DNA of 64,000 bases from Nymphaea colorata (taxonomy: Eukaryota > Streptophyta > Magnoliopsida > Nymphaeales > Nymphaeaceae). The first letter of the stretch is position 1, and the number at the start of each line of letters is the position of its first letter. The notes under the pieces were generated by a model that worked only from the letters and a program-made list of their open reading frames with translations, made no database searches and was not told the DNA's origin. Shown here piece by piece: positions 5,036-58,121 of the stretch. The stretch is taken from the NCBI RefSeq assembly GCF_008831285.2, contig NC_045141.1, positions 6,926,853 to 6,990,852 of the forward strand, written 5' to 3'. A program made the translations under genes and the position numbers.

Positions 5036-6165
5036 TAACACTTATGTTCAATGCTTGAGCAGCGCTAATACTGCACAAAACGGATTATCTCATTTATGAT
5101 ATATGCATATGATTGTCATATATATATATGTGTGTAACAACAATATTATCTCATCCATGAAGTAAACATATAATTGTCATATACATATATGTAAGAATGA
5201 TATCTAATTGACATGTATGTCCATACCAAGCTTATGGTCATGTTTGAGCATCAGAGTACTGCTTGAAAGATATATATACACGTATGGTTTTCATATGTGC
5301 ACAATCGATCAATAATAGTGATGTTTATGTCACATTTTGATCATTACAAATCATATATTCAAATTAGATATAGATAAATGACAACTAATTGATGTGTATG
5401 ACCATACCAAGCTTATGTTCACGTTTGAACATCGGTAGTACTGCTCAAATATACATATATAAACATATGGTTTCTATATATGCACAATCGATCAATGACA
5501 ATGGTGCCCATATCAAATTTTGATCATTGCAAATCATATGTTCAAATTAGATATAGATACTTGAAAACTAATTAATGTGTATATCCATACCAAGCTTATC
5601 TCCACGTGTGAGCATCAATAATACTGCACAAACATATATACACACATATGGTTTTCATATGTGCACAATCGATCAATGATAACAGTGCTTATGAGAAATT
5701 GCGATCATTGCAAATCATATGTTCAAATTAGATATAGCTAAATGACAACCTAATTGACATGTATATCCATACTAAGCTTATGTTTACATTAGAGCATTGT
5801 ATGGATATGTGCACAATATATACACATATGGTTTTCATATGTGCACAATTGATCAATGATAACAATGCTTATGTCACATTTGGATCATTGTGAATCATAT
5901 GTTCAAATTAGATCTTTGTTAAATGACAACCCAATTGATATTAAGCTTATGTTCACGTTTGAGCATCGATAGTAATTCTCAAAGATATATATACATATAT
6001 GGTTTCCATATGTGCACTACTAATCAATGATAATGGTGCTTATGTCACATTTTGATCATTGAAAATCATTTGTTCACATTAGATCTTAGATAAATGACAA
6101 CTTAACTGACGTGTATATCGATATGTACACAATTGTTTGATAGTACTGCTCATCCATATGATAGT
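5036..6165. repeat. Tandem array B, about 182-bp period, HindIII-type satellite
   Basis: CCATACCAAGCTTATG-like landmarks recur, with AAGCTT at 5228, 5409, 5592, 5774 and 5943. Spacings are 181, 183, 182 and 169 bp, the last shortened by a small deletion. Each unit also holds ATATATACACATATGGTTTTCAT, GTGCACAATCGATCAATGAT and TTTTGATCATTGCAAATCATATGTTCAAATTAGAT in order. There are about six units including partial ends. The sequence is unrelated to arrays A and C. No coding potential is seen. Confidence 0.9.
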
Positions 6166-7532: not shown

Positions 7533-10095
7533 ATAAGAAATTTACAATAACAACGAACCTATTTGTATGAGACAAATTCGTGCAATAACACAACTGCATG
7601 ATTAGTTTTACGATACACTCAAATAAAATCATGTCCAAAAAAACAAGATAGCTACTCAGACAAATTAAATGAAACAACAACACTGTATGAAATTCTTTTA
7701 CAATAGGAAGGCACCTACTAAAAGGCGATAAGCACTCGGATGAAACAAATTGTGATAATGCATTTGCAGGATTCGTTATACGAGTCACTCAAATAAAATC
7801 GTGTTTATAAGGATGTGATACCCACTTAAAAAAATTAAACGCAACAACGACAAAATGCGACAATAACATTGTATCAAGTAGTTGTTTGCGGCAACGACAC
7901 TATATCAAGTAGTTTTATGACAACAAGGCACTAAGGGAATAACATATCCACTCGAAAAAATGCAATGCAACAACGACAATTGTAGGCACTTCTTTTACGA
8001 TAAAAAGGCACCTACTAAAAGGCGATAAGCATTCAGAAAAAACAAATTGCGATAATGCCAATTGCAATATTCGTTATACCATACACTCAACTAAAATCAC
8101 GCTTATAACGATGCGATATCTACTCGAAAAAATTAAGTACGACAACGAAACTGTATCTAATGGTTTTATGATAATAAGACGATTACTAAGAGAATATGAA
8201 ACCCACTCGAAAAAATGTAATGCGACAACGAGTATGGTAGGCACTTCTTTTACGTTAAAAAAGCATCTACGAAAAGGCGATATGCACTATGACAAAACAA
8301 ATTGCAATAATGTTAATTGTAATATTTGTTACACGATACACTCAACTAAAATCGTGCGTATAACGATGCAATACCCACTAAAAAAAATTAAATGCGACAA
8401 TGAAACTGTATCTAGTGATTTTATAATAACAAGGCACTTACTAAGAGAATGTGATACCCACTCGAAAAAATGTAATGTGACAATGACAATGGTAGGCACT
8501 TCTTTTACGATAAAATGGGGCTTATTGAAAGGCGATAAGCACTCCGACGAAAAAAATTGTGATATCACCAACTGCATTATTCATTATACAATACACTTAA
8601 CTAAAATCATGTAATGAAGCAATAACCACTCAAAAAAATTAAATGCGGCAACAAAAAAATGGAACAATGAAACTATATCTAGTGGTTTTACGATAATAAG
8701 GCGCTTACAAAGAGGATGTGATACCCACTCGAAAATATGTAATGCGATAATGACAATGGTAAGCCCTTCTTTTACGATAAAAAGGTGTCTACTAAATGGC
8801 GATAAGCACATCGACTAAACAAATTGCGATAACGCCAACTGCAATATTCATTATAAACTTGAATCATACTTATAATGACATGACACCCACTCGAAAAAAT
8901 TAAATGTGATGATGATAAAATGCAGCAACGAAAACTGTATCCAGTGATTTTATGATCCAAAATGCTTACTAAGAGAATGCGGTATCCACTCGGAAAAATG
9001 TAATGTGACAATGATAATGGTAAGCACTTCTTTTACGATAAAATGGCAACAACTAAAAGACGATAAACACTCCGACGAAACAAATTGTGATAACGCCAAC
9101 GGCAATATTTGTTATATGAGACACTCAACTAGAATTGTGCTTATAACAATACAATACTCACTTGAAAAAATTGAATGCAACAACAACAAAATGGGACAAT
9201 GAAACTGTATCCGGTGGTTTTACAATAACAAGGCATTTACTAAGGTAATGTGATACCCACTCGAAAAAATGTAATATAACAGCGACAATGGTAGGCACTT
9301 CTTTTACGATAAAAAAGGTACCTACTAAAAGCCAATAAGTACTCTTACGAAACAAATTGTGACAACATCAACTGCAATATTCAGACGGGATACCCATTCA
9401 AAAAAATGAAATGCGACAATGACAAAATGCAACAACGAAACTGTATCTGATGGTTTTACGATAACAAGGAGCTTACTAATAGTATGCGATACCTACTCAT
9501 TAAAATTTAATGTGACAATGACAATGGTAGGCACTTCTTTCATGATAAAAAGGCGCCTACTAAAAGGTGAAAAGCATTTCGACGAAACAAGTTGCGATAA
9601 TGCCAACTGCAATATAGTTATACGATACGTTCAACTAAAATCATGCTTATAACGATGCGATATCTATTCAAAAAAATTAAATGCGACAACGACAAAATGT
9701 GACAATGAAACTGTATCTAGTGGTGTTACGATAACAAGGCACTTACTAAGAGAATGCGAAACCCGCTCAAAATAATGTAATGTGACAACAACAATGGTGG
9801 ACACTTCTTTTACTATAAAAAGACACCTACTAAAAGGTGATAAGCACTCCGAAGAAACAAATTGTGATAACGCCAACTGCAGTATTCGTTATACGATACA
9901 CTCAACTATAATCGTGCTTATAAGGACGCGATACACATTCTAAAAAGTTAAATGCGACAACGACAAAATGAGACAATGACAAAATGCGCCAACAAAACTG
10001 TATCCAGTGGTTTTACAATAACAAGGCACTTACTAAAGGAATGCGATACCCACTTGGAAAAATGTAATGCGACAATGAAACAACAATGCGTTGAA
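7533..10095. repeat. Tandem array C, about 255-270-bp period
   Basis: The landmark TAGGCACTTCTTTTACGATAAAA recurs with starts at about 7983, 8238, 8493, 8760, 9021, 9292, 9528 and 9798, spaced 255, 255, 267, 261, 271, 236 and 270 bp. Partial units extend to about 7680 and 10090. Each unit contains two related halves built on CCCACTCGAAAAAAT...AATGCGACAA, so the unit is itself an old dimer. Many differences are CG-to-TG/CA changes, as expected from methylated DNA. Frames up to 167 codons, such as 8111-8614, are repeat artefacts that recur from unit to unit with stops. Confidence 0.92.
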
Positions 10096-21622: not shown

Positions 21623-22327
21623 TGTTGCCGGCCGACTCTGGCCCGGCCAAGCCACTAAAAGGTGATGCTGCTTGGCCAACTTAGGCATAGTTGGAAGGTA
21701 TATGGGATTCGATCGCACGCCGAGTCTAGCAGAAAGTAATGCACGTGGAATGTGCAGCGCGGTGGTGCGACGACAAGGCGTTTCAATGCATCAAGATCAG
21801 CGGTCCCTTTGAAAGTGCAAGTCCGCCGTTGGGGAATCTAGTGGGTTCCTCACGCGTAGTGTTTGGATACACAAGGGGGTGCGTGTGGGTTAGGGGCAAT
21901 TCCCCCAGTGAGCGCATACGCTGCGTTCCACAACCGCGTAGAGTCACGCGGGGTTGAGCAAGTGAATGCTCATCGTCGAGTAGGGCGATGGTCGGTCACC
22001 TTACTTAATGACATATAGTCGTCAACTGGCTTCGGCTGGGGACTTCCTCCCAAGGGAAGTCTACCCCCACCCAGATTTCGTTTGGATGTAGATAGGCACT
22101 TAGAGGAATGACGAAGTTCTGACAGGGCCTCATAACCACGGCTTGCCGATGGCCGACAATAGGATAAACCTGGGTGATGGTGTGCCGAGTGCTTAGCACT
22201 CATCGTCTAGTCCACAGTCCCATTTAAAAGATGAATGCTTCCGCTAGCTTAAGAGAGAGACGGCTGGCCGAAGGCTTTGGGGAACGCCTTCGGCGCCGCG
22301 CGGGCTGGAGAAACTCGGCCCGTGACA
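21623..22327 (+). repeat. Left LTR of the 2.0-kb element
   Basis: It starts TGTTGCCGGCCG and ends CCCGTGACA. It aligns end to end with 22932-23639, apart from small indels such as the extra TGT near 22946. A GC hairpin near its end (CCGAAGGCTTTGGGGAACGCCTTCGG, 22270-22295) is kept in both copies and could be part of the RNA 3'-end signal. Confidence 0.9.
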
Positions 22328-22931: not shown

Positions 22932-23639
22932 TGTTGCCAGCCGACTGTGTCTGGCCCGACCAAGCCAGTAAAAGGTGATGCTGTTTGGCCAACTTAGGCA
23001 TAGTTGGAAAGTATGTGGGATTCGATCGCACGCCGAGTCTAGCAGAAAGCAATGCACGTGGAATGTGCAGCGCGGTGGTGAGACGACAAAGCATTTCAAT
23101 GCATCAAGATCAGCGGTCTCTTTGGAAGTGCAAGTCCGTTGTTGGGGAATACAGTGGGTTACCCACGCGTAGTGTTTGGATACACAAGGAAGTGCGCGTG
23201 GGTTAGGGGCAATTCCCCCAGTGGGCACATACGCTGCGTTCCACAACCGCGTAGAGTCACACGGGGTGAGCAAGTGAATGCTCATTGTCGAGTAGGGCAA
23301 TGGTCGGTCGCCTTACTTAATGACATATAATCGTCAACTGGCTTCGGCTGGGGACTTCCTCCCAAGGAAAGTCTACCCCCACCCAGATTTCGTTTGGATG
23401 TAGATAAGCACTTGGAGGAATGGCGAAGTTCTGACAGGGCCTCATGGCCACGGCTTGCCGATGGCCGACAATGGGATAAACCTGGATGATGGTGTGCCGA
23501 GTGCTTAGCACTCCTCATCTAGTCCACAGTCCCGAAGAAAAGATGAATGTTTCCGCTAGCTTAAGAGAGAGACGGCTGGCCGAAGGCTTTGGGGAAAGCC
23601 TTCGGCGCCGCGCGGGCTGGAGAAACTCAGCCCATGACA
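22932..23639 (+). repeat. Right LTR of the 2.0-kb element
   Basis: It starts TGTTGCCAGCCG and ends CCCATGACA. It is preceded by the polypurine tract at 22919-22931. Confidence 0.9.
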
Positions 23640-35607: not shown

Positions 35608-36021
35608 TAATAAGCCACACAACCATACACTTGGCGACAACACAACCAGCTCCAATATTGACACTGGATGACATCACGCCCATGCCAACAAGATTATCGC
35701 TGGAGGAGATCACGTCCATTCCAACAACATCAGATTCAAAATTGTACTTAAAAGAGATCATGCCCATGCTAAAGATAACGTCCATCTCAGTATGGCAACT
35801 ATCTCAGAAAAAGGGGAAATTCAAGATTTTGTAAATCAATTAAATCCCAAGAAATGTGAGACTGATATGTGCGCAGATTGAGTATAAATAAAATCTCTTG
35901 TCTTGTGAAAATTAACAAAGAAGGGATATTTCCTATCTAGACATAAATTAAAAGTCGAACCACGTTAAACGGTGTCTTCTCCTCTTTTACTGTCTTCTCT
36001 TCTTTGGTGTGTGGTTTTCTA
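35608..36021 (+). repeat. 5' LTR of the Copia element
   Basis: It starts TAATAAGCCACACAA and ends GTGGTTTTCTA. It contains ATATAAATAAAATC near 35882, a candidate TATA or polyadenylation region shared with the right LTR. Short internal repeats GGAGGAGATCA/ATGCCAACAA give a minor tandem structure near 35660-35720. Confidence 0.93.
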
Positions 36022-36033
36022 TGGTATCAGAGA
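36022..36033 (+). promoter_or_regulatory. Primer binding site (tRNA-iMet)
   Basis: TGGTATCAGAGA matches the complement of the initiator tRNA 3' end in 11 of 12 positions. It starts directly after the 5' LTR. Confidence 0.9.
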
Positions 36034-36047
36034 TCGGTTATTCATAA

Positions 36048-39000
36048 ATGGCATCTCAACCACTAACACCAGAAGGAAACTCCTACAGTATGGCTGCGGC
36101 ATCACCAAAACTGGATCCGACACCATGAATCTGCCGCTTTCAGGCCTGATCTCCTCCATCATACCTGCTCCCACTAGTCTTCAGCATTTCCTATCCATAA
36201 AATTGTCTTTCGACAACTACTTCCTTTGAAAATCTCAGTTCATTCATATGCTTAAGAGTTATAATATGATGGGATATATTTATGGGTCATTCAAGTGTCG
36301 AGACGAGTTCTTGTCCAGTGAAAATGACAATGGAACAAATTTAAATCCAGCCTTTCTGGAATGGAATCGAGGTGATCAACTTCTACTAAGTTGGATCATC
36401 TCATCGTTAAGTGAAGTACATAGTCAAGTCATTGGTCTTGATTCATCGTACAAATCTTGGACCACTATAAAGCGTATCTACGCTGCTCAGTTTAGAGCAA
36501 AGGTGCAAAAACTAAAATATGCCCTGCAAAACCTGAAAAAGGGAACTGAATCTATAACAACATATTTTCACAAGGCCAAAGGCATAGTTCATCAATTTGC
36601 TACGGCCTCCAAACGAATCGACGAAGAGGATCTTGTTATGAACATTCTCTCTGGACTTCCCACCGAGGAATATGGTACTCTGAAAATTTCCTTGTGCACT
36701 CGCGTCAATGATATAAATTTCAAGGAGTTATATTCTTTATTTCTTATTCAAGAAAATCTGAAATTTCGAAATCTAGAAATTTTGAAGACCCTTCAGCCTA
36801 TATAGTGCATCGACAAAATTTCAAGAATCATAACTATCGTGGAAAAATTGAACAGCAAAGAGGGCATCCAAGAAACCATCATCAGGATAAATCTCTTAGT
36901 TGTCATGCTTGTGGGAATCGTGGACATTTTGCTTCTCATGCCAAACTGTATGTCAAGTTTACAGGAAACCAGGACATGGTGTATTAAATTGCAAATTATA
37001 TAAATTTCAAAAGGAATCATCTTTCCCAAAAGCTTATCATATGGAAACTATACCTCATACTGATGACAGATCTTGGTATCCAGACATCGGCACTACCCAT
37101 CACGTGACTGCCGACCTAAATAACCTATTTGTTCATTCAAAATATCGTGGGCAGGATCAGTTGAGAGTTGGAAATGGTGCTAGTCTTCAAATAAAAAATG
37201 TTGGTCATGTTTCTCTACAGCTCGGACTCAAAATTTTTTAATAAATAATGTGCTGCATGTTCCTACTATTTCCAAGAATCTACTATCTTTGCATAAATTT
37301 GACTATGACAATGATGTTATTTTTGAATTTGACACAAATCATTGATATGTTAAGAATCGGACAACGGGGGGGGGGGGGGGGGGACTTTTGGAGGGAGCAA
37401 ATAAAGGAGGCTTATATCAGCTAAAGTTATAACAATATGCAGCTTGCTAGAAAATAGCACTTGTGGGAGAACGGGCCTTAGTTGATAATTGGCACTGTCG
37501 AATGGGACATCCTAATTGTAGAACTGTGATGCATGTTTTGAATAAATTTAATTTACCTATTGACAGCAAGTTTTATAATAAGATATGTGATGCATGTCAA
37601 AAAGGGAAAAGTCATGCTCTTCCTTTTGCATTGAAACAACATAAGATTGATGCTCCACTTGATTTGATTTTCACTGATGTTTGAGGGCCATCAGCTACTT
37701 CATCTTTACATGGTTATAGCTACTATGTTAACTTTATGGATGCATTCTCTCGCTTTTCTTGGATATACATTATCAACAATAGATCAGATGTTCTCTCTGT
37801 TTTTAAAACTTTTTAAGTTATGGTAGAATGACAATTTGATCAAAAAATCAAGCCACAAAGCGAGTACAGAGGAGAATATCAAATTGTTTCCACCTACCTC
37901 AAACAAATTGGTATTGTTCATAAAGTAGCTTGTCTACATGCTTACCAGCAAAATGGCAGCATAGAAAGCAAACATAGACATATAGTTGACATCGGGTTGA
38001 CGCTTCTCGCACATGCAAACTTGCCTTATAAATATTGGGATTTTGCCTTTAGAACTGCTGTCTTCTTGATCAATAAAGTGCCAACTCAGGTTCTTAAAAT
38101 TAAGTCACCTTATCAAATTTTGTTCAAAAACTCTCCAGATTATAAATTTTCAAAGTTTTTTGGATGTGCTTGCTATTCATGTCTACGTGATTTCAACTCT
38201 CACAAATTGCAGTTTCGCAGCAAACAATATGTCTTTTTTGGTTCCAGCAGCATGCACAAAGGATACATTGCTTCGATCAAGATACGAGCAAACTTCTTAT
38301 CAATAGACATGTGGTATTTGATGAAGGTGTATACCCCTTCAAAATCTCGGCGTCATCAACCAAACCCAATGAACCTACACCCACACTCCCCTTAGTCATA
38401 ACCATGCCATCCCAAACCGTACCACATCCACCAAACCATGCACAATCCAAGCTGTGCCACATCCATCAAATCTTATACAACCTCTAGCATCCAATCTCTT
38501 AACTCAACCAACCTCTCCCATTCATTCCCCCTCTACCACCATCTCCCCTAACCAAGATACGCCAATTGAACCTACACCACCACAACCGAACCCTACACCC
38601 CCTCCAACATTCTCCAAACCACATTGATCCCATACCATGCTCACACGGTCCCAAACTAGTTCTCTAAAGCACAAAACCTATACCATCTCCAAATATCCTC
38701 TCCCTAAGATTCATCTCACCCATCTAAATCTTGAAACCGAACCTCATATTGTGTCTCAAGCCTTCAAACATATTCATGAAAGCTGAACTTGCAGCTCTAA
38801 ACAACAATCACACATGGACCCTTGTCCCGCCACCTCCCTCTACTAATATTATTGGTTCAAAATGAGTTTTTCGTATCAAAAGGAAAGCTAATGGCACACT
38901 TGAACGGTACAAAGCTCGCTTAGTCGCCAAGGACTATACCCAAGAACATGATATTGACTACTTTGAAACCTTCAGTCTAATAGTCAAACATTCACTGTAC

Positions 39001-40260
39001 AAGTTCTCCTCATGATTGCCATCACCTATGGTTGGACTGTTCGACGACTTGATGTTCACAATGCTTTCTTTCATGGCGTTTTCACTGAGAAGGTATATAT
39101 GGCTCAGCCCCCAGGCTTCATTGGTGACTGATTTCCTCATCATGTTTGTCAGTTGCATAAGGCCATCTATGGTTTAAAACAGTCTCCTCGCGCCTGGTTC
39201 CATCGACTTACTACCTTCTTGGTTTCATTGGGTTTCGTTAACTCTAAAGTGGATCTCTCTTTTTATGCGGTTGCAGCAAGATTCAACACTATATATTTTA
39301 GTTTATGTCGACGACATCATTATTACAGGCAATAATGATATTATGATTCAGTCTATTATTCATACTCTAGACAAAGAGTTTGGCATCAAAGACCTTCGCC
39401 TCCTACACTATTTTTTGGGCAGACAAGCAACATTCTCTTCCAAAGGTCTGTTTATTTCTCAAGAAAAGTACATGCTTGATCTTCTCCAGAGAGCAAACAT
39501 GGTTGAAGCAAAATCCCACTCTAAACCCATGTCCACCACCTTTAAGCTGCCCAAACATGCTGGGGAGCCCTTATTTGATCTCACTCCTTATCGGCAACTT
39601 GTTGGCGCACTGCAATATCTTACACTTACGAGCCCCGATCTCTCCTTTGTTGTTAACAAAGTTTGTCCGTACATGCACCATCCTACTGCTGTATGCATAA
39701 CTGCGGTCAAACATATTTTACGTTATGTTAAGGTAATGCTATCATGTGGTCTACTTTTAAAACAAGCCACCAATTTTCAAATTGATGCTTACACAAATGG
39801 AGATTGGACTAGAAATATTGATGATCGAAACTCTACTGAAGGATTTGCCATCTTCATGGGTTCATCTTTTGTCTCTTGGTCTGCTCGCAAATAGCCTACT
39901 GTTGCTCGATCGAGCACCGCAGCTGAATACCATGCTCTAACGTCTTGTTCCTCTGAGGTTTTATGGCTCACAATTTTACTTCATGAATTACACATCACTA
40001 TGCCGCATGTTCCTCGTTTATGGTGTAATAACATAAGTGTTGCGCCTCTCTCTGCCAATCCTGTAGTTCATAATAAAAGCAAGCATATTGAGCTCAACGT
40101 CCATTTTGTTTGAAATCGCATCGCAAAAAGTCATCTTCAGGTTCACTATATTCCTAATGTTGATCAACTGGCTGACATTCTCACAAAGCCTCTCGCTCAA
40201 ACTACTTTTGACAACCTCAGATTCAAGCTAAACAGTCTTTCTCGAGCGTTCATCTTGCGG
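36048..40260 (+). pseudogene. Copia gag-pol polyprotein, broken
   Basis: The reading starts at ATG 36048 (MASQPLTPEGNSYSMAAAS), then shifts frame. Gag (UBN2) spans 36248-36790. Zinc knuckles follow, CHACGNRGHFASH (last Cys lost) and CQVYRKPGHGVLNC (second Cys is Tyr). The protease motif near 37080 reads YPDIGTTHHV where D-S/T-G is expected. Pre-integrase WHCRMGHP and CDACQKGKSH lie at 37480-37610. The integrase core has GYSYYVNFMDAFSRFSW, with the second acidic site SEYRGEY in place of S/TDxGGEF and the Glu in QNGSIESKHRH intact. Reverse transcriptase shows RRLDVHNAFFHG, KAIYGLKQSPRAW and LVYVDDIIITG. RNase H shows AYTNGDW, STAAEYHAL and SKHIELNVHFV. In-frame stops (for example at 37682, 37815 and 39892) and frameshifts make it inactive. 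Confidence 0.93.
37366..37383 (+). repeat. Homopolymer run of 18 G
   Basis: An unbroken (G)18 lies in the Copia protease-to-integrase linker. Such runs are rare in AT-rich plant DNA and prone to sequencing length error. Confidence 0.9.
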
Positions 40261-40266
40261 GAGGGA

Positions 40267-40678
40267 TAATAAGCCACACAACGATACACTCGGCAACAAC
40301 ACAAGCAGCTCCAATATTGACACTGGAGGAGATCACACCCATGCCAACAAGATTGTCGCTGGAGGAGATCAAGCCCATGCCAACAACATCAGATCCAAAA
40401 TTGTACCTAAAAGATATCACACCCATGCTAAAGATAACGTCCATCTCAATATGGAAACTATGTCAGAAAAAGGGGAAACTCATGATTTTGTAAATCAATT
40501 AAATCCCAAAAAATGTGGGACTGACATGCATGCAGATTGAATATAAATAAAATCTCTTGTCTTGTGAAATTAACAAGAAAGAGATTTCCTATCGTGGACG
40601 TAGACTAAAAGTTGAACCATATTAAATGGTGTCTTCTCCTCTTTTACTGTCTTCTCTTCTTTGGCGTGTGGTTTTCTA
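40267..40678 (+). repeat. 3' LTR of the Copia element
   Basis: It starts TAATAAGCCACACAA and ends GTGGTTTTCTA, aligning over its whole length with 35608-36021. It is preceded by the purine tract GCGGGAGGGA. Confidence 0.93.
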
Positions 40679-43094: not shown

Positions 43095-43362
43095 AAGGAG
43101 GAGGAGGAGGAAGAAGGGAAGGGAAGGGAAGGAGGAGGAGGAAGAAGGGAAGGCAAGGGAAAGGAAGGAGGAGGAGGAAGAAGGGAAGGGAAGGGAAGGA
43201 GGAGGAGGAGGAGGAAGGGAAGGGAAGGAGGAGGAGGAGGAGGAAGGGAAGGGAAGGATGAGGAGGAGGAGGAAGGGAAGGGAAGGGAAGGAGGGAGGAG
43301 GAAGAAGGGAAGGGAATAGAGGAGGAGGAGGAAGAAGAAAGGAAGGGAAGGAGGGAGGATTT
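43095..43362. repeat. Polypurine tandem repeat (GGAGGAGGAGGAAGAAGGGAA-like units)
   Basis: About 270 bases are almost only G and A. They are built from GGA triplets alternating with AAGGGAAGGGAAGG blocks in units of roughly 30-45 bp. The only interruptions are single C or T bases near 43151, 43258 and 43317. Confidence 0.95.
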
Positions 43363-43424
43363 TGTGGATGATGGCCGTCAGGCGGTGCCATCGGCGGCGG
43401 TGGGGGACGTGGGGAGGTGGCCTC

Positions 43425-43700
43425 GCCTGCCCTCCTCCCCTTCTTCCCCTCTTCTCCTTCCCTCCTCGCCGTCCCCTCTTCCCCTTCTTCCCCTCTTCTC
43501 CTCGCCGTCCCCTCTTCTCCTTCCCTCCTCGCCGTGCCCTCTTCCCCTCTTCTCCTTCCCTCCTCGCCGTGCCCTCCTCCCCTTCTCCCTCTTCCCTCAT
43601 TCCCTTCCTCCTTCTTCCTCCTCAATCCTTCCTTTCTTCCTCCTTCTTCCTCCTCCCTCCTTCCCTTCCTTCTCCTCCTCCTCCCTTCCTCAGCGTCCCT
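43425..43700. repeat. Polypyrimidine tandem repeat complementary to the polypurine block
   Basis: This block is mostly C and T: CCTCCTCCCCTTCTTCCCCTCTTCTCCTTCCC-type units with interspersed CGCCGT. It is broadly complementary to 43095-43362, so the pair can fold into a large imperfect hairpin. Confidence 0.93.
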
Positions 43701-43902
43701 TCTTCCTCCCAACGGTCAAAAAAATTTTTCTGGAAAAATTTTTTTACCCCTGGCTGGAAAAAATTTTCCAAAAATATTTTTCCATTTCCAATTTTAACGG
43801 TAAAAAAAAAAATTCTAAGTTTGATGGAGAGGAAAAATTTTAAAATTTTGAATTTTTTTTCTACTGCTACAGTAAATTTCCAGGGCATCAAACGTGCCCT
43901 AA

Positions 43903-50870: not shown

Positions 50871-51960
50871 TTGGGTTTATCAATTCAACATACTATCCTT
50901 AAATACACTTCTCACCCTAATAAGTGGGAGCAACAACAAAATGGGATATCAAAAAGATGTCATGTGTAGCTTAAGGCTGGCAGAGACTTGCTTCATTGAA
51001 AGGAAGACGATCACTTCATTGTTTCATGAAAATAGATATGAGAGAAAATAAGAACAAAATGGTTTTGTATTATATGTACACATAATAGGAGCTCCAAATC
51101 ACTTCCCAGGACTTGCTGGTTTATGTCTACGTGTCTCAACAAACAACCCACAAATTCATGATCACAAAGGTTCAGAATTCCTTTAGCTTCAAGATATTCA
51201 TTGTGTAGGAATTCTCTAGAGAATCACATTAATGTTATTTCAATGCTTTTACGTGAAACCTATTTTGGATAATGGTGATTTCCTGGTCTAGGGTTGTCAG
51301 GTTGTAAAGGGGGTGTTTGATGGCCTAGAATTATAATTTTTGAGATGAAAATTTCTAGAACCACAATATTCACCCCAAACTGGAATTAGAATGAAAATTC
51401 CAATTCCACACAACTCTAGTTTTCTCATGTGTTTGATAATCTAGAATTTTGATTCCAAGATGCTTTTGATTTAAAGGGAATTAACAATATGTAATTGGAA
51501 GCATATGACCATTGACTTCGCCGAAAAACTTTACACCCTTGCAGCATAAGCCCACAACACCACTCAGTAATTTAAAGATGCAACAAATGAAAAAGAAAGC
51601 TAGGATAAAAAAAATAATTATAAAAATAATTAATTGAAACAGCATCATTCTAAGGCTGATGCTAAGAATTTATTTTCAAGTTTTGCATGTTACAACCTAA
51701 AAAAGACGTAAAAAATATATAAACATGACACACTTGGGAAAAACGACTGATCAGGAATACCTAGTTTTGTCTATTTGTTATTGGCCTTTGACAGGATCAC
51801 GTCAGCAACCATCTTCGTCGACTTGTGCTCCTGGACATGTGGTTGTCAAAGAGTTCTCAACTGGCATCCTCACCGAATAAAGCACTGAAATATATCAGAG
51901 TCATCAGACATATAGACAATTAGATAATATGTTTGCAGTTGGACGCAAAGTCCTAGCATA
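50871..51960. other. No gene; possible left terminal repeat of a larger DNA element
   Basis: At 51309 the sequence GGGGGTGTTTGATGGCCTAGAATT resembles the PIF/Harbinger end type seen at 42979. A weaker inverted counterpart lies at 55530-55552. Otherwise nothing is recognised. Confidence 0.35.
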
Positions 51961-53789
51961 ATCCAATAAGCAGCAAGAGCAATAGAAATATTGGCCAGAG
52001 CCTTTCTTAGCGTCGTTTACATGGGAACAAATAATGTTCAATTGATCAAAAGAGAATGGTCAAACGAAACAAGTAAAATAAGGATTATCTGAAGATGTGT
52101 TAATGTTGCAACCCTATATGCACACGATGACATGTGGCATCACTTGACTTGCATTTTTCCTATCTAAAATTCAAAACATGGGTGTTTTCATCAGTGAGAA
52201 CAACAAACAATATTCAATAAAAAATGTGATAAGAAGCATAAAATCTACTAACCTAACAAAACAATCATATGTACCAGTTGCCATATTCACATTCAATAGA
52301 ACTCACCAGGTACCTAAAACCAAAATGGCATAGCTGCCTAACATGGACTATGGACACCATCCTAAGTATAGGTAAAATCTGGCATTCATGTACTTATTAT
52401 AATCTAAATGACAACCAAAAAGTAAAACAATGCATCTTAATGAGACAGAATTGTAAAACATGGTCCTTCATTTGGTAAAACAACTATAAGATCATAACTG
52501 ATGTATAGAAAATATAAAGATTGGTCAAACCTTTCATTATGACATCGAACCCGCCAACTTGATTCCAACAGATGGCATCTGTACATAAAGTTTTACAATA
52601 TTTTAAAAATTCTATTTATTTTCATATACTTTTGGTTTGTGTGTATACATATAGATATATATTCAATTTCTGATTTTTTATGACACTGCATCATACTGTC
52701 ATTACGAAGATATGTTAGTTTCTTATAGAAGAAAATCTCAGTCGAACTATGGCACCAAAAGATCAATCAAAGATTTAGTTACATTTCCAACTTCGAGACT
52801 AACATCATGCATATACTTTGGCTTGTTGCTTGTTGTGTATTGCGTTAAAAACAAATTCTTTCACTTTCATATGCTTTTACTATTTTTTTTTTGGCAGAAA
52901 AGAAAAGGTGTGGAGCTGTCATCTTATTTATTTAGTGCAGCACTAAATAAATAAGATGACAGTTCCACACCTTTTCTTTTCTGCCAAAAACAAAAAAAAT
53001 TAGTAAAACTGAGATTTTCTTCTATAAGAAACTAACATATCTTTGTAATGACAGTCTGATGCAGTGTCATAAAAAATCAGAAATTGAATATATATCTATA
53101 TGTATACACACAAACCAAAAGTATATGAAAATAAATAGAATTTTTAAAATATTGTAGAACTTTCTGTACAGATGCCATCTGTTGGAATCAAGTTGGCGGG
53201 TTCGATGTCATAATGAAAGGTTTCACCAATCTTTATATTTTCTATACATCAGTTATGATCTTATAGTTGTTTTACCAAATGAAGGACCATGTTTTACAAT
53301 TCTGTCTCATTAAGATGCATTGTTTTACTTTTTGGTTGGCATTTAGATTATAATAAGTACATGAATGCCAGATTTTACCTATACTTAGGATGGTGTCCAT
53401 GGTCCATGTTAGGCAGCTATCCCATTTTGGTTTTAGGTACCTGGTGAGTTCTATTGAATGTGAATATGGAAACTGATACATATGATTGTTTTGTTAGGTT
53501 AGTAGATTTTATGCTTCTTATCACATTTTTTATTGAATATTGTTTGTTGTTCTCACTGATGAAAACACCCATATTTTGAATTTTAGATAGGAAAAATGCA
53601 AGTCAAGTGATGCCACATGTCATCGTGTGCATATAGGGTTGCAACATTAACACATCTTCAGATAATCCTTATTTTACTTGTTTCGTTTGACCATTCTCTT
53701 TTGATCAATTGAGCATTATTTGTTCCCATGTAAACGACGCTAAGAAAGGCTCTGGCCAATATTTCTATTGCTCTTGCTGCTTATTGGAT
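51961..53789. repeat. Long near-perfect inverted repeat with one-base loop
   Basis: The left arm (51961-52938) and right arm (52940-53789) are reverse complements around the single base at 52939; the inner 18 bases pair without a mismatch. Identity is about 97% by eye over the full arms, apart from one block of roughly 137 bp (about 52742-52878) present only in the left arm. The same 69-codon frame appears at 52269-52478 on the plus strand and 53272-53481 on the minus strand, showing the symmetry, but it has no known domain. A transcript from either strand would fold into an RNA hairpin of about 850 bp. No transposase or terminal repeat explains it. Confidence 0.93.
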
Positions 53790-54125
53790 CATTGTCACAT
53801 AAAACACGTATTATTCGAAAAAAACATGTATAATACCCAAGAAATAAGTTAGCGATATAAAACAACAATTAGATGCGTCTTTTTTTAAAAAATGCTAGTA
53901 AATAAAAAACGTGAAAAAACACGTATTAAATGCAATTTTTCACGTTTTTTCGTATTTTTTGTTAATTTTTATTTTTCATAATTTTTAAGATTTATTAAAT
54001 GTTTTCATTTTTTTTTATTTGCTGAGATTTTTCTGAGATATTCCCAAGATATACAACTTTGTCATATTATATCCGAGAAATTCATCGCCGTATAATACCC
54101 GTACACGATATATGTGACAATGATC
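53787..54125. mobile_element. MITE with GATCATTGTCACAT inverted ends
   Basis: GATCATTGTCACATA at the left and TATGTGACAATGATC at the right are perfect inverted repeats of 14-15 bases. GATC is its own complement, so it may be part of the ends or a 4-bp duplication. The interior is AT-rich and contains the palindromic pair AAAAACGTGAAAAAA / TTTTTTCACGTTTTTT (53917-53950). It abuts the right end of the long inverted repeat exactly. There is no coding sequence. The superfamily is unclear. Confidence 0.65.
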
Positions 54126-55671
54126 ACAACAAACCTGATGAAAGGAGAGAAGACTTTCAATCTTTCTACTTTAAGACATAGTCAGGTCGATATAATTAGA
54201 CAACGCTCGCATGGTAGAGAGGTTTGCAGCACCGACTATAGAGGAAAAAAGCCTCTCAAACTACTTGATTCTTTGAACTTTGAAGGCTTGTTAAAAGCCA
54301 AAAAAGAAACTTAGAAAAGGAGTCTAATGCTGCTAAATGCACTAGGAAACTTAGCAAACTATCTTAAAGAAACACTCTAGTAAGATAGGAAACCAAGCTA
54401 AAATTATACAAGGACGATAATTGGCAACTAACCAATAAATAAGGAGAAGGAGGAGCTATGTATAGAACCAATATGTCAAAAAAGAATCGTAAATCGGTCA
54501 GTGCAAAGCCCTCCTGTTTAAGCTAGTTCTCCTGAAAATCAAAGCAATAAGGTCTTTTCAATGTCGTTTGATATATTTTTGCAAATCAGTTTTCGTCTTA
54601 ATGAAAAAGTTAGCAAGAATAGGTTCTAAGGTAAGGTGGACAACAGGTGAAGAGAAAAGTTGGCCGACACAAGGCAGCGACTAGTTCTGCAAAACTTGCT
54701 ATTAGGGGCTGCGGTGGAGAGAGCCCCCTTCAGATCATTTCCAAAACAAAGAAACAAAAACAAAGATAAGTGCAAAGAACATGGTAAGCTCTAGCAATCA
54801 GTAAACATGTTCCACTATGGCTAGTAAGATAATGCAGTTTAGGAAAACCAGAAGCAGAAGAAGTCGGTACAGATGGATCACAAAAGAAATGCGGCATATT
54901 AAAGCAACTAAGTCAGAGATCATGTACATCAATGAATTCGTTATTGAAATCGTGCAAGTCACCGACCAGAAAACCAGAATTGGAAGTCCTATCTGGCCAT
55001 AATCGAGGACATGGCCCATGGGCACCTTCGGTTAGAGGACAGCTATGCTTCAGCCCAAAACGGAAAAAAGAAAAAGGAGGAATAAAGGGGCTGCCAATGC
55101 GGCCCCTCTGTGCGTCCGCCATGGCCGCTGCCAACAGACACTTCAGGTTAGGACGAGAGAGAGAGAGAGAGAGAAAGAAATGGCAGGGAAGACAGAAAGA
55201 GGGCCTTACCCACTATCGGGGAGAGAAAGAGTTGAATCAGGGCTGCAATGGCCGCTACTTGCACTGCTAACAGGTGGACGAAGAAGAAGAGGGCGACCTT
55301 ATGGGGAGGAGGCCAGGATGGTTTCTTTGCGCAAGGGAGAAAGCTTCGCAGGCACGGGAGAAGAAAAATTCATGGACGGTTCAGAATTCCGATTTCGAAA
55401 TTAAAATGAGATCCCCAAACTCAGTTTTTGTCTCCAAATTTCCATTCTGGAATGGGTCCTCAATTATGGAATCAGTCTTTGATTAAGCGATTCCCATTTC
55501 TTTAAAAAATAGAAATTTGATTCCACAATTCCTGCTAATCAAATGACCGCTAGTGATTTCGGCAGTGGTAGAGCAAGAAGTGCCTCCCATGTAAAGAGTA
55601 TCACTTTTGTTGGTTGTAATGCTATGGTTATATGAAAATTTTGGAGGTTCAAAATGATGCCATTCACTTAT
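54126..55671. other. Intergenic, no gene recognised
   Basis: A (GA)n tract lies at 55153-55174. Frames at 54932-55486 are rich in Lys, Arg and Gly because of GA-rich sequence and show no domain. The end of the stretch (55440-55552) resembles the subterminal part of a PIF/Harbinger-like element. Confidence 0.35.
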
Positions 55672-56751: not shown

Positions 56752-57915
56752 CTAGGCCAGGCATGTTACCAAGGTACCTTCCTCCATCTCTTCTCCACAT
56801 TCCTCTGCTTCGTAGTAAGCAAGCAGGCCCCTCCTCTCCGGGTCAACAACTTTCTCTCCAACGATCTCAATGGACTTCTTTGGAACAGATTTTGGGGCGC
56901 AGACTCCATTCTTTGCAGAGAAGCTCTGGTATACCAGGCAGCCTCCCCCCACAAGCTCATGCTCCACCACCTTACCACAGGCATAGCCCATCATCCCCTT
57001 CTTTGCAGACATCTTAGCAATTGGGCTTGTCGAGTCACAGTGGATTGCAATGGAGAATTCTGCTGGCTCGAAGCAATTGAGCACACGGCCGATCATCGCC
57101 TCCAGTTCCACTGCATTCACAGCTTTCCTGGCGTCAACCACATCAACAAACTCGAAGCTAGCATAGCTGAACCCGTCCTCCGGAGTGACATGAATGGTGG
57201 ACAGAGCGCTGCCATTGATGGAATTCATGGAGTACCCGCAAGGCTCGAACTCAAAGTCATTGATTTCAAAGTCGGGGAGGATGTTGGCAATCCCAGAAGC
57301 GCTAGTCATCGTCTTTCCCGAGCTCCCATTGTTGTTGAAAAACACAGATGCTCTTTCCCTGCTGAGCTTTGTCATGCACATCTCCATCGTCATTGGCACA
57401 GCAGCCATGGACTCAATCGAGGACCAGTAGATGTGCCAGTTACGGGCGGGGTCACCGCCGTCTATCACATAAGCATCCCCGGTCTTCCCGAACAGCTTGG
57501 CAAAGTGACCGTCAAGCACAGCAACCTCCTCAGAGAAGCTGGAGTGCGGCGAAGGCTGAGCTTCGGGGAAGATGAACATTCCTCGGGAATATTTGACAGA
57601 AATAGGAGCGAGGGACAGACTGCTCGCGTGCTTCAGTATGATGGGAATCGAGCGCAGAAGCTTGGTGGTCCCGCAGGTCTTGATGATGATCTTGTAAGGG
57701 TGGATGAAGAGGCTGGACTCAGACAGGACGTAGGAGTCCATGACACTGTTGGACAGATTGTCCACGATGGTGCATTCTGCAGCACGGAGGAACTCATCAA
57801 TCTGAGGACGAGCAAGCGCCCTGAGACCCTTCCCCTGAGGGTCAGCGAAAACAGAGGGCTCGCGGAAGATGATTTCGAGCCGCTTCTCGTAACCTTCGAA
57901 TCCAATGGCAGACAT
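56752..57915 (-). CDS. SAMDC: S-adenosylmethionine decarboxylase proenzyme (AdoMetDC)
   Basis: It decarboxylates S-adenosylmethionine to supply aminopropyl groups for spermidine and spermine synthesis in the cytosol. The proenzyme cuts itself, and the new N-terminal Ser becomes the pyruvoyl cofactor. The protein has 387 residues, normal for plants, in one intronless ORF as in other plant SAMDC genes. Visible key sites are Glu7 and Glu10 (FEGYEKRLEI), the cleavage motif YVLSESSLF with the cut between Glu66 and Ser67, Cys81 in KTCGTT, Ser229 in GYSMN and His242 in STIHVTPEDGFSYASFE, which also contains the plant PEST-like turnover segment. The frame stays open upstream to 58041, but that extension has no ATG (it begins TTG), so the ATG at 57915 is the start. 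Translation is controlled by two uORFs at 58122-58393. No inactivating change is seen. Confidence 0.97.
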   Translation of the reverse strand: MSAIGFEGYEKRLEIIFREPSVFADPQGKGLRALARPQIDEFLRAAECTIVDNLSNSVMDSYVLSESSLFIHPYKIIIKTCGTTKLLRSIPIILKHASSLSLAPISVKYSRGMFIFPEAQPSPHSSFSEEVAVLDGHFAKLFGKTGDAYVIDGGDPARNWHIYWSSIESMAAVPMTMEMCMTKLSRERASVFFNNNGSSGKTMTSASGIANILPDFEINDFEFEPCGYSMNSINGSALSTIHVTPEDGFSYASFEFVDVVDARKAVNAVELEAMIGRVLNCFEPAEFSIAIHCDSTSPIAKMSAKKGMMGYACGKVVEHELVGGGCLVYQSFSAKNGVCAPKSVPKKSIEIVGEKVVDPERRGLLAYYEAEECGEEMEEGTLVTCLA

Positions 57916-58121
57916 TTTTCCTTTTTCTTTCAGTAACAGGTGCTTAAAACTTGCGCGTCTGAGACCAGTTGCAGGAGAGAAGGGGAAGAAAGGGCAGAAG
58001 GGAAAAGAAGAAGACTTTTTTCTCCCGGCCGAGGTAGACAAGTTTCCTACTGAAAACTGAACAAAGTGAAGAAATCAAAAAGACGTCCTACTCTACGGAT
58101 GGAAACTAGCTTTGGGGAATA

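Follow-up and report, generated by a model that had tools for sequence, protein, structure and literature searches.

The window, i.e. the whole 64,000-nucleotide stretch of Nymphaea colorata DNA that was analysed (contig C4, 6926853-6990852), contains a long inverted repeat that turns on a single base and whose right arm ends at a high-copy MITE. Old, repeat-derived sequence lies on both sides, and an S-adenosylmethionine decarboxylase ORF is found ~3 kb from the inverted repeat and outside it. The features, in order, are:

51391..51957, minus strand: old sequence continuing beyond the left arm; a high-copy repeat matches its outer part, ~51307-51461.
51958..52938, minus strand: left arm, in an ancestral context; homology to three relatives (C2a, C13 and C8) crosses its outer edge.
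52742..52875, no strand given: segment of ~128 bp in the left arm only, from the arm alignment and the relatives.
52939: turning point of the palindrome, a single central base.
52940..53789, plus strand: right arm, local inverted copy of 52938..51961, missing from five relatives that span the place.
53790..54122: MITE, 333 bp, high-copy, ends CATTGTCACATA...TATGTGACAATG, adjoining the outer end of the right arm.
54123..55548, minus strand: old flank past the MITE, parts of which precede the inner left arm on the same strand in five relatives.
56752..58074, minus strand: S-adenosylmethionine decarboxylase ORF (PF01536, E 8.6e-106), the nearest gene recognised.

A preliminary description of the locus had reported nearly spacerless arms of 978 and 850 bp around base 52939, and both the arrangement and the lengths are borne out by self-BLAST of the window, a repeat search and full alignment of the arms. 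Self-BLAST pairs the outer arms (51958-52742 with 53008-53792) over 785 bp at 98.34% reverse complementarity, with 13 mismatches and 0 gaps, and the repeat search pairs the inner arms (52883-52938 and 52940-52995) over 56 bp at 96% with the one base 52939 between them. The sole large difference in the full alignment is the left-arm-only segment of ~128 bp, which accounts for the unequal lengths. The further statement that there is almost no loop holds for the spacer, with the qualification that the stem has a bulge of ~128 nt about 60 bp from its tip. The palindrome is far beyond chance. Inverted pairs of at least 150 bp and at least 80% identity lying less than 3 kb apart were surveyed in 260,002 bases, made up of the window and seven 28-kb regions that were picked for arm similarity and not at random; the palindrome and a 174-bp pair in region C2b were the only two found. 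The C2b pair is 91% identical with 96 bp between its members and is separate from the arm relative in that region.

Relatives of the arms were sought by searching the 407.8-Mb assembly (783 contigs) with 51961-53789 as query, which gave eight candidates, all scored, and 21 matches. Each arm has the other as its sole near-identical match. Seven other places, on C12, C13, C10, C8 and C6 and two on C2 (C2a and C2b), carry relatives at 71-81% identity in the main piece of each place and 71-87% in single pieces; a donor locus for the arms elsewhere in the genome, which had been envisaged, did not emerge, no place exceeding 81% in its main piece. Each of these places matches the query twice because the query is a palindrome, the place itself being single-armed, and a search of the homologous position in each of the seven found no inverted pair.

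The relatives display the arrangement that preceded the palindrome. Homology to C2a, C12, C10 and C6 passes from window 54399-54418 to 52855 on the same strand, and homology to C2b passes from 54123 to 52930, in every case with neither the right arm nor the MITE. At this junction of flank and left arm C10 has an unrelated insertion of 1.3 kb and C2b has ~213 unmatched bases; the C13 and C8 relatives stop short of it. Since the flank joins the inner left arm in five relatives that have neither right arm nor MITE, the left arm is the old one and the right arm a local inverted copy. C2b shares 8 exact bases at the turning point itself, possibly by chance, and a second alignment did not co-place them. 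The relatives also bear on the ~128-bp segment: five of the seven hold 105-119 of the 119 bases tested (C13 holds 28 and C8 0), so the right arm must have lost it, either while being copied or later.

The MITE at the outer junction belongs to a numerous family, with at least 40 places, the window copy included, scored among 1054 candidates. Twenty other copies were fetched, and a script located the ends of 18; flanks were counted as matching when at least 7 of 8 bases agreed. This was so for 13 of the 18 copies as against 10 of 306 mismatched pairings, and by eye the flanks suggest target-site duplications of 8-9 bp, a length that would fit Mutator-like or hAT-like movers. The window copy, whose right flank starts ATCACAACA, matches at 4 of 8 flank bases and has no target-site duplication. 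Because five of the 18 other copies also fall below 7 of 8 (in one of them, L033, the script misplaced an end), the missing duplication is by itself modest evidence.

Taken with the single-armed relatives, these features make it quite likely that the palindrome arose by a recent local inverted duplication, with a break at the MITE end repaired through template switching, and a duplication origin as such is well supported. The starting state would have been old, low-copy, repeat-derived sequence with a MITE inserted within it, as suggested by relatives that have neither MITE nor right arm and by a MITE that has no target-site duplication. Breakage at the left end of the MITE, or close to it, would have removed its duplication together with some adjacent DNA, and the broken end may then have used the short self-complementary turn TTTAGTGC-A-GCAC to switch template, after which ~0.98 kb of its own neighbourhood would have been copied backwards and the copy joined to the MITE end. 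Either at that time or afterwards the right arm lost ~128 bp, and both arms acquired point changes, as their alignment shows. An alternative order of events, in which the palindrome came first and the MITE arrived afterwards, landing precisely where the right arm ends, draws on the abundance of the MITE family; it is improbable, requiring both an insertion within a base or two of the arm end and subsequent loss of the target-site duplication.

That the palindrome is itself a transposable element of the foldback type, with very long terminal inverted repeats, is more doubtful still and can be given very little weight. The length of the arms and the repeat-derived nature of their sequence would fit such an element, but all seven relatives found are single-armed, and three of them run through the left boundary. 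Elements of this kind are recognised by a target-site duplication and several palindromic copies; here the best agreement just outside the arms is 5 of 8 bases, with no target-site duplication, and the genome search returned no second palindrome.

The arms were described beforehand as young, and their 98.3% identity supports a fairly recent duplication. The full comparison has 22 differing columns, scored by script as 16 derived in the right arm, 3 derived in the left arm and 3 unclear; nine columns outside the 785-bp block were dropped, two in the inner arms and seven beside the 128-bp gap, the latter because they reflect alignment effects. Judged by the relatives, the 13 differences that remain within the block comprise 9 changes in the right arm (one at the very boundary and two on weak counts), 3 in the left and 1 unclear. 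The split is uneven at 9 to 3, yet the changes are too few to set it clearly apart from an equal one. The ~1.7% divergence would place the duplication roughly 0.6-1.2 million years ago, provided that there has been no gene conversion and that substitutions, for which no rate specific to this plant was used, accumulate at 0.7-1.3 x 10^-8 per site per year.

Long-read sequencing is known to generate, as an artefact, near-perfect palindromes with a very small centre, and an assembly or sequencing error, e.g. a palindromic long read, was considered as an alternative. Such an origin is very unlikely and the palindrome is probably real: the arms differ by 13 substitutions across the 785 bp and by an indel of ~128 bp, and the right arm joins a MITE whose far side is the old flank. 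Furthermore, there are three sites (52274, 52349 and 52411) where the left arm has changed and the right arm still shares its base with every one of the four relatives covering the site; retention of the ancestral base in the right arm argues against an artefact, since a read folded back from the left arm could not contain these bases.

The parent of the arms is best called an old, low-copy, repeat-derived sequence, to which we assign no superfamily. The relatives in C12, C10 and C6 sit inside elements, upstream of hAT transposase sequence. Pfam recognises the hAT domains PF14372 and PF05699 in two ORFs of C12, where the arm-like stretch ends ~170 bp before an ORF that has no Pfam match and ~1.2 kb before the first hAT-domain ORF. 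The assignment of C10 and C6 to hAT is by DNA similarity to C12, the one C10 ORF scanned there having no Pfam match. The C10 element has ends TAGGGATGTTAA and TTGACACCCTTA and a 7-bp duplication around 8.4 kb; neither C12 nor C6 yielded a counterpart of the left end. As the remaining relatives lie outside any recognised hAT element, the arms need not derive from one. The preliminary view that no known element type explains the arms has thus to be revised for both: the left arm is old, low-copy dispersed sequence that occurs also inside hAT elements, and the right arm is accounted for as a local inverted copy of the left, ending at the MITE. As a separate observation, a 1.3-kb insertion in the C10 hAT element (L011, 2380-3709) contains a UDP-glycosyltransferase fragment (PF00201, E 1.4e-14) and has ~10 duplicated bases at its borders; it looks like a gene-capturing transposon nested in another.

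The high-copy match at ~51307-51461 scored in at least 34 of 40 rows from 148 candidates, of which ten copies were inspected, and the opposite end near 55548 has two genome matches, its own included. A complete transposon from ~51307 to ~55548 was considered and is not claimed, given those two matches at the high end and the weak hits that were all that a search for inverted ends returned. Searches with the flanks gave partial relatives on C12 near 20.77 Mb, on C1 (including a place near 34.77 Mb) and on C9 (including one near 23.08 Mb). Those at C12 near 20.77 Mb and at a C9 place match the outer flank only, and one C1 stretch aligns with window 54739-55532 and with a small part of the low end.

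The neighbouring S-adenosylmethionine decarboxylase gene is absent from the seven 28-kb regions and from L051, and a segmental duplication that carried it along with the arms was rejected. Protein-coding arms were likewise rejected: a Pfam scan that took in all three frames of the minus strand across 51700-52940, a single minus-strand frame across 54126-55600 and two ORFs gave no credible match, the best (E 0.075) failing the cut-off. Splice-like stretches can be discerned by eye in the arm sequence, and the arms may still contain a short or spliced coding piece. Near the C2b relative lies an aquaporin-like gene (L015, 1818-2961; MIP, PF00230, in ORF 2296-2688).

The palindrome has the long, near-perfect inverted repeat and short loop that characterise hairpin-siRNA loci. 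Computed folding bears out the expectation that a transcript would form long, near-perfect dsRNA, with minimum free energies of -1420.4 and -1413.2 kcal/mol for the transcripts of the two strands and longest unbroken stacks of 216 and 242 pairs; five random stretches of the window gave -346 to -605, the stretch at -605 overlapping the inverted repeat itself. An RNA polymerase crossing the palindrome would thus be predicted to produce an RNA stem of ~840 bp. Stems of this kind are standard substrates of Dicer-like enzymes in plants, and this one might be processed by them.

Most likely, the palindrome has at present no role beyond possible self-silencing. It is possible, if unlikely, that it is instead a working hairpin-RNA locus, whose Pol II transcript is cut by Dicer-like enzymes into siRNAs of 21, 22 and 24 nt that act on the relatives. 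Its near-perfect fold with long stacks is what such a locus would need, and long inverted-repeat RNAs of Arabidopsis are considered substrates of DCL2, DCL3 and DCL4 (PMC4687873). All seven relatives share arm 24-mers at two mismatches or fewer, as against 0 in two control stretches; of 958 24-mers, C13 shares 73, C12 71, C10 62, C2a 33, C8 14, C6 11 and C2b 5. However, in C10, C8 and C2b part of this two-mismatch sharing falls outside the homologous stretch. Exact left-arm 24-mers occur in only three of the seven relatives (C10 19, C2a 9, C13 3), every one of them from a single AT-rich tract at window 52638-52679. Nor does an Rfam family support this reading, tRNA and Rfam searches of the window having returned nothing at threshold; the same 0 Rfam matches mean that the described family at gathering score expected of a miRNA gene was not found. 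The tip gave 32 sub-threshold Rfam hits, mostly to miRNA families, as expected of a perfect hairpin.

That the hairpin silences related hAT elements is conceivable but weakly supported, and it becomes less probable in that all exact 24-nt matches come from the one AT-rich tract. Its stronger form is a very long shot: that the hairpin is a Mu killer-like silencer of natural origin, in a flowering plant of an early-diverging lineage, with siRNAs that match sequence upstream of the hAT transposase genes and contribute to keeping the family methylated and silent.

No paper on the locus itself appeared among the open-licence papers listed, which is weak evidence of absence, and the palindrome is best placed beside systems described elsewhere. 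Inverted duplications formed by template switching or foldback have a very small centre, a local copy and a non-homologous outer junction. The palindrome shares all of these, and differs in that its outer junction is the end of a MITE. The usual miRNA precursor is far shorter than the palindrome. One model has miRNA genes, TE-derived examples among them, originate by inverted duplication (PMC3237417), and the palindrome resembles that model as a de novo, repeat-derived inverted duplication homologous to possible targets. Mu killer of maize (PMC3440606) is an inverted duplication of transposon sequence whose proposed hairpin RNA silences its parent in trans, although the same work detected short antisense transcripts and casts doubt on a long hairpin. 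Both are inverted duplications, with transposon arms in maize and repeat-derived arms here; Mu killer duplicates a transposase gene and terminal promoter and its silencing is genetically proven, whereas no coding domain is recognised in the palindrome. IR71 and IR2039, endogenous inverted-repeat siRNA loci of Arabidopsis, share with it a long, nearly perfect repeat capable of forming dsRNA, and their precursors and siRNAs have been measured (PMC4687873). Unlike Mu killer, IR71 and IR2039, the palindrome is known from sequence alone.

The locus offers a clean and roughly datable case of the birth of a hairpin locus, in which paralogues show the prior arrangement, the outer junction falls at a MITE end and the arms are barely diverged. 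If transcribed, it would be a young test case for two points: whether siRNAs arise immediately from random inverted duplications of repeat-derived DNA, and whether they act on relatives of 71-81% identity.

The window contains a number of other repeats. A degenerate tandem array with a period of ~255-270 bp (~8 copies) occupies 7642-10088, and arrays of 181-bp and 176-bp units lie at 5196-6123 and 2382-2981, respectively. A direct repeat of ~0.7 kb and 92.8% identity is found at 21623-22327 and 22932-23639, its copies 0.6 kb apart. At 43095-43715 a purine-rich (GGA-type) array opposite a pyrimidine-rich one forms an inverted repeat of low identity. Finally, 35608-40678 is probably a copia-type retrotransposon, in which a direct repeat of ~0.41 kb (89.6%) encloses a gag-like ORF (PF14223).
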